DNA from: Butyribacter intestini
Lineage (GTDB): Bacteria; Bacillota; Clostridia; Lachnospirales; Lachnospiraceae
DNA length: 64,000 bases
Direction: 5' to 3'
NCBI GenBank assembly: GCA_001414325.1
Contig: LLKB01000005.1
Span: 357,060-421,059, forward strand
The notes beneath the pieces were generated by a model that was not told the origin of the DNA, did no database searches, and was given only the letters and a program-made list of their open reading frames with translations. Of the stretch, positions 16,176-20,168 are shown piece after piece. Position numbers and translations under genes: made by a program. The number at the start of each line of letters is the position of its first letter. Within the stretch, counting starts at the first letter, position 1.

Positions 16176-17108
16176 TTAATCTGTAAATAATGATGTTGAA
16201 TAATATCTGTCACCACTGTCCGGTAATAATACTACAATATTCTTTCCTTTGTTTTCTGCTCTTTTAGCATACTCGATTGCTGCTGCAATTGCTGCTCCTG
16301 ATGAGATACCTACGAGGATACCTTCCTCTTTTGCAATCGTCTTGCTATATTTAAATGCATCATCATCCTTTATAGGCAAAACTTCGTTATAGACTTCTGT
16401 GCTAAGTGTCTTTGGAACAAATCCTGCACCTATTCCCTGAATCTTATGTGCTCCTGCATGTCCCTGTGAAAGTACAGGTGATGCTTCAGGCTCAACTGCT
16501 ATAACTTCAATTTCAGAATTTTTAGCTTTTAGATACTGACCTACTCCGGTAAGAGTTCCACCTGTTCCCACACCTGCTACAAATGCATCTACTTTTCCAT
16601 CCGTGTCATTCCAGATTTCAGGACCTGTTGTCTTTTTGTGTGCAGCAGGGTTTGCAGGGTTCTCAAACTGTCCCGGTATAAAGCTGTTTTCTATCTCTTT
16701 TGCAAGTTCCTCCGCCTTTGCAATAGCACCTTTCATTCCCTTTGTTCCGTCTGTAAGTACAAGTTCAGCACCATATGCCTTTATAATATTTCTACGCTCG
16801 ATACTCATTGTCTCCGGAAGTACAATGATGATTCTGTATCCCTTTGCTGCTGCGATTGCTGCAAGTCCGATACCCGTATTTCCCGATGTCGGCTCAATGA
16901 TAGTTGAACCCTCTTTTAAAAGACCTTTTTCCTCTGCGTCTTCTATCATCTCTTTTGCTATTCTGTCCTTAACGCTTCCTGACGGATTAAAATACTCAAG
17001 TTTTGCAAGAATTTTTGCTTCAAGATTAAATGCCTTTTCAATATGTGTGAGTTCTACAAGCGGTGTGTTTCCGATAAGTCCAAGTGCACCTTTATATATA
17101 TTTGCCAT
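16176..17108 (-). CDS. cysK: Cysteine synthase A (O-acetylserine sulfhydrylase)
   Basis: PLP enzyme making cysteine from O-acetylserine and sulfide; 310 residues. Start is the ATG at 17108 ([20 protein letters not shown]), which has AGGAGG 9 nt upstream; an in-frame codon further up lacks this. PLP Lys lies in [10 protein letters not shown] (about residue 43). The substrate loop [11 protein letters not shown], the phosphate-binding [10 protein letters not shown] and the late SGAAIAAA motif are all present. It is the second gene of an operon after the metY-type gene (93-bp gap) and ends before a strong terminator. Regulation is probably by sulfur or cysteine supply, through the leader upstream of metY. 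Confidence 0.95.
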
Positions 17109-17201
17109 AATAATAATCCTCCTGTTTATGTTATATCTATATTCTAACACTTAATGAATCGTCTGAATATAACTTTTATTTTACTTTACAATGTTTTTTA
17201 T

Positions 17202-18509
17202 TTACTGAACTGCCTTAAATGCTTCATCAAGATCTTCGATAATATCGTCAATGTTCTCTGTTCCGATTGAAAGTCTTATAGTATTTGGCTTGATACCCTG
17301 GTCTGCAAGTTCCTCTTCGTTAAGCTCTGCATGGGTTGTTGATGCAGGGTGGATAACAAGTGATTTAACATCTGCTACATTTGCAAGGAGTGAGAAAAGT
17401 TCAAGGTTATCGATAAATTCTTTTGCTTTGTCTGCATCTCCCTTAATCTCAAATGTAAAGATAGAGCCACCGCCATTAGGAAAATATTTTTTATAAAGAC
17501 GCTGCTGCTCAGGGTCTTTGGATACTGACGGATGATGAATAGCCTCTACAAGTGGCTGTTTCTTAAGGTAATCTATTACTTTAAGTGCATTCTCTATGTG
17601 TCTCTCCACACGAAGTGACAATGTCTCAAGCCCCTGAAGGAATATCCATGAATGTATAGGCGAGATAGTAGCTCCTGTATCACGAAGAAGGATAGCTCTG
17701 ATTCTTGTAACAAAAGCTGCCGGACCTGCTGCATCAGCAAAACTTATTCCATGATAACTTGGGTTTGGCTCTGTAAGCTGTGGAAATTTACCTGATGCTT
17801 TCCAGTCAAACTTTCCTCCGTCAATAATAACACCACCGATAGTCGTTCCGTGACCACCGATAAACTTAGTAGCTGAATGAACTACAATGTCTGCTCCATA
17901 CTCGATAGGACGAAGAAGGTACGGTGTTGCAAATGTGCTGTCGATAACAAGTGGAATCTTGTGTGCATGTGCTATCTTGGCAATTGCTTCTATATCTGTG
18001 ACTTCTGAATTTGGATTTCCAAGAGCCTCTATGTAAAGAGCTTTTGTATTGTCCTTTATAGCAGCTTCAAAAGCTGATGGATCAAGCGGATCAACGAATG
18101 TTGTCTCAATATTGTAATCTACAAGTGTATGTGCAAGAAGGTTGTATGTTCCTCCGTAGATATTCTTTGCTGCAACAATATGGTCTCCTGCAAGTGCAAG
18201 GTTCTGAATAGTGTATGTAACTGCTGCCGCACCCGAACCAACTGCAAGTGCTGCAACACCACCTTCAAGTGCTGCTATTCTTTTCTCGAAAACATCCTCT
18301 GTAGGATTTGTAAGTCTTCCATAAATATTACCTGCATCCTTAAGACCAAATCTGTCAGCGGCATGCTGTGAATTGTGGAATACATAAGATGATGTCTGGT
18401 AAATAGGAACTGCTCTTGCATCTGTAACTGCATCTGCTGTTTCCTGACCAACATGTAACTGTAATGTTTCAAATTTAAAATTTCTATCTGCTCTTGATTT
18501 CTTACTCAT
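17202..18509 (-). CDS. metY: O-acetylhomoserine sulfhydrylase (Cys/Met metabolism PLP enzyme)
   Basis: 435-residue member of the Cys/Met metabolism PLP family; it most likely converts O-acetylhomoserine and sulfide to homocysteine. The motif set fits MetY: LHVGQE near the N terminus, [19 protein letters not shown], the PLP lysine in [16 protein letters not shown] (about residue 212) and [14 protein letters not shown] near the end. The insertions are longer than in MetB/MetC-type lyases, supporting MetY. Start is the second ATG at 18509 (MSKKSR), with GGAGG 8 nt ahead. It is preceded by a roughly 300-nt transcribed leader containing a Cys-ending small peptide and followed by cysK. Cystathionine gamma-synthase is the main alternative. 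Confidence 0.9.
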
Positions 18510-18586
18510 ATATCTGTCCTCCATATATCAATTCTATTCTTTGTTTGTGCCTGTATTCTTTATTTCCAATCAATAAGTATCTTTCA

Positions 18587-18643
18587 CTCTCAGCTTTTGA
18601 CTATCAGCTTGACTTTCAGCAAAAAAATATCTTTGCTCTCAGC
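18587..18643 (-). repeat. Four short GCTGANAG repeats in the metY leader
   Basis: On the minus strand GCTGAGAG, GCTGAAAG, GCTGATAG and GCTGAGAG occur within 57 bp (plus-strand positions 18587-18594, 18601-18608, 18613-18620, 18636-18643). The outer two belong to a longer direct repeat of about 20 bp. They lie between the leader-peptide stop and the metY ribosome site. Their role is unknown. Confidence 0.7.
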
Positions 18644-18688
18644 TTTTAGTTCTTTCATCACTTTCGCTCGGTCTTTTTTTAATATATA

Positions 18689-18778
18689 TCAGCGGCAACA
18701 GTAATCATGCCACCATTTAAAGCTGCACATTCGACTGTCTTTCATTGTGTAGTCAACTAAAAATCGTCTGTTTATCAT
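18689..18778 (-). CDS. Cys-ending leader peptide upstream of metY-cysK (29 codons)
   Basis: A short open frame ATG(18778) to TGA(18689) encodes 29 residues, beginning MINRRFLVDY and ending W-W-H-D-Y-C-C-R-stop, with one more Cys at position 18. GGAGGGAGTTAA stands directly before the ATG, a much stronger ribosome site than most genes here have. It lies within the transcript predicted from the promoter at 18814-18841 and about 180 nt ahead of metY. Consecutive scarce codons for the pathway's end product, at the end of a small peptide before a biosynthetic operon, are the hallmark of translation-sensing attenuation. The codons TGT TGC lie in one arm of a short stem (GTGGCA/TGCCGC). No clear U-run terminator follows, so the switching mechanism is not visible. 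Cysteine sensing is inference. Confidence 0.72.
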   Translation of the reverse strand: MINRRFLVDYTMKDSRMCSFKWWHDYCCR

Positions 18779-18813
18779 TTAACTCCCTCCATACTCTACT
18801 TGTCATATATTTC

Positions 18814-18841
18814 ATATTACCTTGGTATGATTTGCTGACAA
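18814..18841 (-). promoter_or_regulatory. Promoter of the leader-metY-cysK operon with a dyad in the spacer
   Basis: -35 TTGTCA (18836-18841), 16-bp spacer, -10 TAATAT (18814-18819). The arms TACC and GGTA (18818-18821 and 18824-18827) form a small dyad overlapping the -10 edge and spacer, a position suitable for a repressor. An Rrf2/CymR-type regulator would fit the pathway, but no such gene is in the window. Confidence 0.65.
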
Positions 18842-18902
18842 AAATTATAATACTCTCTTATTCCTACTTTGTCAATAGGAAATATATATTTTTTTTACTA
18901 AT

Positions 18903-19088
18903 GTGTAACAGTTCAGCCATAAAAAGATAATTGGCAATACAATGAGCTTGTTCATTGTATTGTTAAGTACCTTTTTATGGTAGAATAGCCTTTCATTTCT
19001 GAAATGAGTAAACATAAGCTGCAAAGCAGCGACTGACAGCTCGCTGGCAGGTTTATGAATGTAAGAAATGCAAGGCTTAACTGTTACA
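18903..19088. repeat. Inverted-repeat element, type II, copy 1 (MITE-like)
   Basis: Ends are GTGTAACAGTTCAGCC (18903-18918) and GGCTTAACTGTTACA (19074-19088), inverted with one mismatch. CTAAT lies directly outside both ends (18898-18902 and 19089-19093), like a 5-bp target duplication. Inside are a perfect 10-bp stem CCATAAAAAG/CTTTTTATGG enclosing a second stem (CAATACAATGA/TCATTGTATTG), and a second block with small hairpins (GCTGCAAAGCAGC; CTGACAG/CTGGCAG). The mnmA stop codon falls in the right-hand CTAAT. It separates mnmA from the metY promoter and may also act as a terminator. The rest of the stretch from the leader peptide to here holds only the promoter. Confidence 0.8.
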
Positions 19089-20168
19089 CTAATATCTAGT
19101 TATCCATCCGCCGGCAGCTATCACATCCCCATCATAAAATACAATAGCCTGTCCCGGTGTGACTGCCCTCTGCTTCTCATCAAACACACATTTTAATCTT
19201 CCGTCTTTCTCTGGGTAAACAATACATGGCGAACCCTGGTGTGCATATCGTATCTTTCCGATAAACCTCGTCGGCTCTGTTATGTTCTCAACCGACATAT
19301 AGTTTATGTTTTCGACATATACCGTATCTGAAAATACACTCTTTCCGTCACCTAAAACTATCTCTCTCGTGTCAGGACATATTTTATTTATATAATAAGG
19401 CTGTGTAGATGGAAGTCCAAGTCCTTTTCTCTGCCCTATGGTATAGTGTTCTATTCCCTTGTGGACTCCGAGAACATTTCCGTTTTCATCCACAAAATTT
19501 CCGGGAACTGTCTTTTTTCCTGTCTCTCTCTCAATAAAACCTGCATAATCATGGTCAGGTACAAAGCATATATCCTGACTGTCACTCTTGTGTGCGACTT
19601 CAAGACCTATTTTTTCTGCAATCTCTCTTATCTGGTCTTTATTATATTCACCAACCGGCATAAGCGTTCTTCTAAGCTGCTCCTGACTGAGATTAAAAAG
19701 CACATATGTCTGGTCTTTCTTCTTTGTCGCAGACATTTTGATGGTATATCTGCCATTGTCAAGTTTCACTATTCTTGCATAGTGGCCTGTAGCAATATAA
19801 TCAGCACCTATCTCCATCGAACGCTGTAAAAGTGACTGCCATTTAACATACTTGTTGCAGGCTATACAAGGATTAGGCGTATGTCCCTTTTTATATTCAT
19901 CGACAAAATAATCTATAACATATTTCTGGAAATCATCCCTGAAATTCATTACATAATAAGGTATGTCAAGCTGTGCAGCCACACGCCTTGCATCCTCCAC
20001 TGCTGACATTCCGCAGCAGCCTCCCTCATGCTCAACTGTACAGGCATCTTCCTGCTGCCATATCTGCATCGTAACTCCGATAACATCATATCCCTGTTCT
20101 TTCAATAAATAAGCCGCAACCGATGAGTCAACACCGCCCGACATTCCAACAACAACTTTCTTCTTCAT
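19089..20168 (-). CDS. mnmA: tRNA-specific 2-thiouridylase MnmA
   Basis: Adds sulfur to uridine 34 of tRNAs for Lys, Glu and Gln. 359 residues from ATG 20168 (MKKKVVVGMSGGVDSS); homologues begin here, so the nine extra codons upstream are not used. The PP-loop SGGVDSS is at about 10-16. The catalytic Cys pair lies in NPCIACNKYVKW (about 102) and SQDICFVPDHDY (about 200). A KKDQTYVLFNLSQEQL stretch and a C-terminal beta-barrel (GQAIVFYDGDVIAAGGWI) complete the family pattern. It follows nifS and nifU, which supply persulfide and scaffold functions. Its stop codon lies in the flank of a type II repeat. Confidence 0.96.
   Translation of the reverse strand: MKKKVVVGMSGGVDSSVAAYLLKEQGYDVIGVTMQIWQQEDACTVEHEGGCCGMSAVEDARRVAAQLDIPYYVMNFRDDFQKYVIDYFVDEYKKGHTPNPCIACNKYVKWQSLLQRSMEIGADYIATGHYARIVKLDNGRYTIKMSATKKKDQTYVLFNLSQEQLRRTLMPVGEYNKDQIREIAEKIGLEVAHKSDSQDICFVPDHDYAGFIERETGKKTVPGNFVDENGNVLGVHKGIEHYTIGQRKGLGLPSTQPYYINKICPDTREIVLGDGKSVFSDTVYVENINYMSVENITEPTRFIGKIRYAHQGSPCIVYPEKDGRLKCVFDEKQRAVTPGQAIVFYDGDVIAAGGWITRY

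Follow-up and report, generated by a model that had tools for sequence, protein, structure and literature searches.

Which part of the 29-codon reading frame in front of metY and cysK in Butyribacter intestini is conserved, and what could it report to the genes below it? The frame lies on the minus strand of the window, the whole stretch of 64,000 nucleotides that was analysed, and the first-pass annotation had described it as a leader of metY-cysK with a strong ribosome site and Cys codons 18, 27 and 28 of 29. Its translation, the ribosome site GGAGGGAG and the matches of the two downstream proteins to TIGR01326 and TIGR01139 bear this description out. The features of the locus are the following.

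16176..17150, minus strand: cysK, cysteine synthase A (TIGR01139, PF00291)
17202..18509, minus strand: metY, O-acetylhomoserine/O-acetylserine sulfhydrylase (TIGR01326, PF01053)
18689..18778, minus strand: leader frame MINRRFLVDYTMKDSRMCSFKWWHDYCCR, 29 codons, ATG start, TGA stop (translation and the frames of relatives)
18695..18700, minus strand: tandem Cys codons 27-28 in the variable tail of the leader (translation)
18725..18733, minus strand: core CGA-ATG-TGC, Arg16-Met17-Cys18 of the leader, with CGA at 18733-18731 (conserved in relatives)
18783..18790, minus strand: ribosome site GGAGGGAG of the leader frame (read from the sequence)
18847..18875, minus strand: sigma-A-type promoter TTGACA-17-TATTAT (11 of 12 consensus matches)
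18861..18881, minus strand: inverted repeat TTCCTATTGACAAAGTAGGAA (TTCCTA-N9-TAGGAA) across the -35 box (sequence comparison)

Read 5' to 3' on the minus strand, the order is inverted repeat, promoter, about 60 nt of leader, ribosome site, the 29-codon frame, 179 nt devoid of strong structure, metY and cysK. The MetY protein scores 617.1 bits against TIGR01326 (cut-off 495.1), and the CysK protein 456.2 against TIGR01139 (cut-off 350.95). For metY, the start at 18509 is preferable to that at 18524, with GGAGG 8 nt ahead of 18509. Comparative sequence analysis indicates that the leader frame is a real, conserved feature: it stands above chance because frames with the same core precede metY in other species. 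The lone copy of CGAATGTGY in the window is not in itself unusual, since 0.85 copies are expected by chance.

The peptide as a whole is a poor guide to these relatives. Searching with its 29 residues in 41 genomes, its own included, gave matches in nine, none of them a metY leader except its own; the search was unproductive because the tail is too poorly conserved. The pattern K-D-[DS/N/G]-R-M-C occurs at nine places in eight of 392 genomes of the order, and by context the only true one is the window leader. Therefore reading frames had to be compared locus by locus: metY orthologues were drawn from the genus, the family and the class, upstream DNA was fetched for part of them, and the short frames were read. 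Two species of the genus link the leaders, their frames MERLNVFNYYNLKDDRMCFKNFICKKMVMCQDKCC and MKKYFNKKDDRMCCCCTEDIMD having in common with that of the window the unit Arg-Met-Cys (RMC). In 127 of the 128 family loci (one was unparsable), RMC is found in short frames at 17 loci, versus 0, 1, 1, 3 and 8 for the other five orders of the same residues. A codon-blind criterion (an SD-like site before the start codon, a length of 8-50 codons, RMC located at residue 8-26, frame start within 420 nt) was applied to 212 metY upstream regions of Clostridia, 126 from the family and 86 from the class, which contain 321 short frames led by a ribosome site. Twenty-nine regions hold a passing frame, among them the window (L012), and in the 321 frames the residue before 'MC' is R in 30 of 56 cases, the next commonest being V in 5. 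By taxonomic labels, RMC leaders before metY span 13 families in the sample. No frame passes in 183 of the 212 regions, some of which may carry a leader beyond the criterion; the RMC leader thus seems dispensable and comes and goes. L101, L157 and L379 (no usable upstream region or metY start) and the duplicates L299 and L300 were left out before counting.

A Cys leader before metY in Lachnospiraceae and other Clostridia, as anticipated by the first-pass annotation, is therefore recovered among these 29 regions, with the first Cys kept. The ending CCR, which the annotation had proposed to look for in relatives, is not the conserved part: in a hand-picked set of 31 leaders the tail varies widely in length and sequence, and tandem Cys occurs somewhere in 15, the window included. 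In five of the 31 (L113, L331, L346, L347, L367) the Cys codon is single, which is weak for a starvation sensor. On these comparisons, the conserved site of the leader is codons 16-18 (CGA-AUG-UGC, Arg-Met-Cys), not the tandem Cys codons near the stop.

Within this site, the Arg codon is CGA in 28 of the 29 codon-blind frames, the exception being CGT in L327. Thirteen family leaders picked by peptide, not DNA, have CGA in all 13, and the hand-picked leaders have it in 30 of 31, whereas the other Arg codons of these same frames are CGA in 7 of 63. As a background, CGA makes up 131 of 2762 Arg codons (4.7%) in frames of at least 300 codons at 77 metY loci, some of which may be spurious, and 17 of 577 in the window. 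Among 13 RMC short frames that fail the criterion, four have CGA and nine have other Arg codons; three of those with CGA (L081, L348, L351) look like true leaders whose ribosome site was missed. The first Cys codon of the core is TGC in 16 leaders and TGT in 15. Arg is thus held as a codon and Cys as a residue. Because related species are not independent, fewer independent events underlie the codon counts than the figures imply, yet 13 families are spanned. Fixation of CGA before a Cys codon suggests that cysteine supply is gauged by ribosomes that pause at this site, and it raises the question of why one synonymous codon is kept nearly without exception before a sensing codon whose wobble base is free.

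Three other readings of the core can be weighed against this codon pattern. The first is that CGAAUGUGY is a 9-base RNA or DNA signal bound by a protein or another RNA, the frame being incidental. Eight of its nine bases are indeed nearly invariant, selection for RMC itself fixing all except bases 1 and 3 of the Arg codon and the last base. However, that last base, the Cys wobble position, is free (C 16, T 15), the core is found in frame within ribosome-site-led frames, often with more Cys codons following in frame, and the codons upstream vary synonymously. We consider such a signal very unlikely. The second reading is an arrest caused by the nascent peptide in the exit tunnel, above all by N-[FY]-R-x-G-R-M; a small sulfur compound might act as the ligand, and Cys would belong to the arrest sequence. 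Of the 31 leaders, 13 retain N-[FY]-R-x-G-R-M-C while its codons change synonymously, as would be expected of an arrest peptide, but the motif is absent both in the leader of the window and in 10 of the 13 family leaders, only about 1-4 residues (depending on the start chosen) stand ahead of RMC in the Actinomyces frames described below, and arrest by the peptide leaves the fixed Arg codon unexplained. Nascent-chain arrest is therefore an unlikely explanation. The third reading is a functional Cys-rich microprotein, for example a metal-binding one, in an operon with metY. Cys-rich tails do occur in some leaders (L013, L126, L503); against this, the tails differ widely from leader to leader, the five one-Cys leaders lack a second Cys, five peptides tested gave zero Pfam or NCBIfam matches, and a microprotein would not predict a fixed Arg codon. 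It can hardly be what the frame is for.

How CGA is decoded may matter for the preferred reading, that of a codon-based sensor of cysteine supply. Among 51 tRNAs found in the genome of the window, Arg anticodons are ACG, TCT, CCG and CCT, and TCG is lacking; since it comes from the scoring of 150 out of 233 candidates and contains a single tRNA-Ser, this list may be incomplete and a tRNA-Arg with TCG could exist. By the wobble rules, the ACG tRNA would decode CGA via inosine when there is no TCG anticodon, and the Arg anticodons found point to this reading here. CGA is slowly read in a Salmonella his leader assay (PMC4046918), and s2C32 stops tRNA-Arg(ICG) from reading CGA in E. coli (PMC5372741). 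A link to tRNA thiolation is conceivable but not general, because some leader genomes yielded no TtcA-like gene. Out of 29 leader-bearing Clostridia, 24 encode at least two PF01171 proteins and five encode one, presumably TilS (G834, G780, G933, G797 and G772, the last 76% complete), and thiolation sensing was rejected as a general mechanism on account of these five. Three Actinomyces gave zero PF01171 matches and are uninformative on thiolation.

The next question is how a ribosome on the leader could act on metY. The simplest precedent is a classical transcription attenuator, in which stalling at Cys codons switches between an antiterminator and an intrinsic terminator before metY, and the leader frame does hold Cys codons. 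In the window, a first scan found no terminator-like site between the leader frame and metY, as the annotation had stated, and a looser scan found only a weak stem, TGGTGGCA/TGCCGCTG, inside the frame; this is probably the short stem in which the annotation had placed the Cys codons. Folding of 18510-18830 is no more stable than that of shuffled sequences (z 0.36). Across the 31 leaders, terminator-like hairpins with loops of at most 12 were found in two (L317 and the weak stem of the window) where 0.10 is expected from mononucleotide shuffles, and L327 has a further one by eye, which could favour attenuation. With loops of at most 8, by contrast, there is one (L356) where 0.7 is expected, and at least 28 of the 31 have none. 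In addition, the distance from leader end to script-chosen metY start is at most 60 nt in 15 of the 31 (at most 17 nt in L355), spacing having been measured for the 31 leaders and four named ones, a set that excludes L200, L203 and L257. The consensus fold of the core stretch of the 31 leaders is empty, with a mean z of -0.65. Few terminators, short spacing and no common fold together indicate that an RNA-hairpin switch is not the general output, and a classical attenuator is accordingly improbable. The leaders do not have one output architecture in common, which counts somewhat against the preferred reading too. A long hairpin lies between leader and metY in Hespellia stercorisuis (L203).

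Rho, RNA decay and translation had been named by the annotation as alternatives to a terminator. Rho is encoded in the genome, but from the leader stop into early metY the sequence is C-poor (mean C 0.11, G 0.17). Typical Rho sites are not poorer in C than in G, and Rho is for this reason not favoured as the output. Of that proposal this leaves two outputs: regulated translation at the metY site, or a stalled ribosome that protects the mRNA 5' end. Stabilisation of mRNA by stalled ribosomes is discussed for the erm genes in PMC9178857; there too the ribosome stalls on a 5' leader, the signal being a macrolide, whereas for RMC leaders stalling is inferred and the signal is presumed to be amino acid starvation.

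Taken together, the leader is in our view likely to be a cis-acting gene through which the metY-cysK mRNA reads the supply of cysteinyl-tRNA, with an output via translation or mRNA stability and a position below an Rrf2-type operator. That the frame is translated, that ribosomes stall on it, that cysteine is the signal, and the sign and route of the effect are what we infer beyond the anatomy of the locus. Transcription would start at the sigma-A promoter under the operator, and ribosomes would load at the strong leader site and reach CGA-AUG-UGY. If Cys-tRNA is short, a ribosome would wait once UGY has entered its A site. Its P site would then hold AUG, and its E site CGA, a rare codon that an inosine tRNA probably decodes; additional Cys codons, where present, would prolong the wait. 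Such a ribosome, stalled near the 5' end, would raise metY expression. The most likely route is either protection of the mRNA or a change in initiation at the metY site, an intrinsic terminator not being the rule. CGA may impose a pause before the sensing codon, or may render the reading of AUG sensitive so that Met is sensed too. A bolder version is conceivable, though we think it less likely than not: CGA-AUG-UGY could be a decoding element common to Bacillota and Actinomycetota, in which inosine-read CGA places a distorted I-A pair in the P site during AUG decoding and in the E site during the wait for Cys-tRNA. This step would be hypersensitive to both Met-tRNA and Cys-tRNA, and the three codons alone would report sulfur amino acid supply with no conserved peptide, terminator or RNA fold.

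From sequence comparison, the inverted repeat across the -35 box is probably the operator of an Rrf2-type repressor, which we take to be CymR/IscR-like. It is present once in the window (at most 3 mismatches), and similar sequences overlie the -35 box of metY in relatives. A promoter-like site ends 30-146 nt upstream of the leader start in 26 of the 31 leaders, where shuffles give an expectation of 0.37; the leader would thus be one of the earliest parts of the mRNA to be translated. A scan of 398 genomes of the phylum gave six with a match, four of them before metY: L513 from the family and L516, L517 and L518 from outside the class. The latter three share the order Rrf2-like gene, leader, metY, with the gene matching Pfam Rrf2 in L516 and look-alike genes in L517 and L518. 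In Hespellia stercorisuis, an Rrf2-like gene, named by sequence, lies between metY and cysK.

The core is not restricted to metY or to Clostridia. In other Clostridia it also stands before genes for transporters and before sulfur genes, and in Actinomyces before ABC genes. Four of the six Actinomyces genomes have two such frames, upstream of the genes for an amino-acid-type ABC ATPase and for a BPD_transp_1 permease. A pattern of RMCCC followed by TRR, with all Arg codons allowed, matched in 19 of 397 family genomes, and two of the places are leader-like, both before NlpA-type lipoproteins. One has CGA (L284); the other (L291, genome G533) has AGG in MMCMCSCCCRPGNEYWHAGNSERYSRMCCC, an extremely Cys- and Met-rich peptide (MMCMCSCCC...RMCCC), and this probable leader would be a real exception to the CGA rule. 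The pattern MGN-ATG-TGY-TGY-TGY has 33 matches in sixteen genomes, each of which was brought in by a place found with a CGA-requiring pattern. Beyond these entry places there are five more leader-like frames, all with CGA (L386, L399, L404, L414, L415), and the eight non-CGA matches that were made into loci are not leader-like, L390 being a possible case.

A scan of the collection with a CGA-requiring pattern gave at least 119 stretches. At least nine of the stretches listed were accepted before metY (L164, L181, L190, L200, L203, L208, L224, L245, L257), of which L181 is the same place as L126 and L245 the same as L103; in other contexts, those accepted among the stretches listed are L272, before a family-3 solute-binding protein, and six in Actinomyces. 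Apart from three in Bacteroidota that are taken up below, the other listed stretches were judged to be chance, many lying out of frame in ABC-F-like genes. A second leader is found in one of 24 leader-bearing genomes (L503, G041; MRKTGIYNAIRMCMMCCCSFMQMC...), before a Cys/Met PLP enzyme. Because their pattern required CGA, the collection, second-leader and phylum scans are silent on the codon. The three stretches in Bacteroidota, from the collection scan with its CGA-requiring pattern, are short frames ending RMCCC or RMCCCCMC. The gene that follows, named by eye, resembles a TonB-dependent receptor in L182 and L194 and a homoserine acetyltransferase in L230; these frames may be further members of the group or chance.

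The RMC leader would act in the manner of amino-acid leader peptides. Its closest likeness is to the polycysteine uORFs of mycobacteria and other Actinobacteria, described in PMC1262725 and PMC4633059 (see also Canestrari et al. 2020, cited in PMC13236596) as short Cys-codon frames before sulfur genes with no clear terminator. Where those uORFs have a run of Cys codons near the stop, the window leader has CC at codons 27-28, and CC stands somewhere in the 15 leaders counted above. The mycobacterial uORFs are described as leaderless, whereas RMC leaders have a strong ribosome site; in RMC leaders the Cys run is optional and CGA-AUG-UGY is fixed. The uORFC-8-2 motif before cysS in Rhodobacterales likewise has a uORF with two tandem Cys codons, together with two stems and an intrinsic terminator according to PMC8632094, and neither of these is conserved in RMC leaders. 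Attenuators of the his/trp type share with the window leader the codons for the amino acid of the pathway (Cys18, Cys27 and Cys28 before metY-cysK) but depend on an intrinsic terminator and an antiterminator, for which the window has no candidate between frame and metY and the 31 leaders have one or two. The cysteine T-box of clostridia, in the account given in PMC2940859, also exerts cis control by Cys-tRNA supply over the same pathway in the same class, but is a structured RNA that reads tRNA without translation. At the Rfam cut-off, the only match in the window is a tRNA, the window leader has none, and 0 of 20 leader-bearing loci match any family; 20 leaderless metY loci were scanned as well. 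The RMC leader was rejected as a T-box on these grounds. A T-box leader occurs at L061 (1178-1395, minus strand), a locus without an RMC leader, where it lies downstream of metY on the same strand, so before the next gene.

No description of the RMC leader in Clostridia was found in the open-licence full text of PubMed Central, subscription papers being outside this scope. The data point to a form of leader-peptide control that is undescribed for the sulfur amino acid genes of Clostridia and that is seen in at least 13 of the sampled families; the CGA-AUG-UGY core offers a search key for annotating such leaders. Upstream of the metY promoter in the window, the neighbouring gene, presumably mnmA-like from its sequence, ends at 19089. 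Between it and the promoter lies a 28-base near-palindrome, CAATACAATGAACAAGCTCATTGTATTG, at 18935-18962, flanked by longer complementary stretches (CCATAAAAAG...CTTTTTATGG) and present in one copy within the window when up to 3 mismatches are allowed; it may serve to terminate the upstream gene or may be a small mobile repeat.
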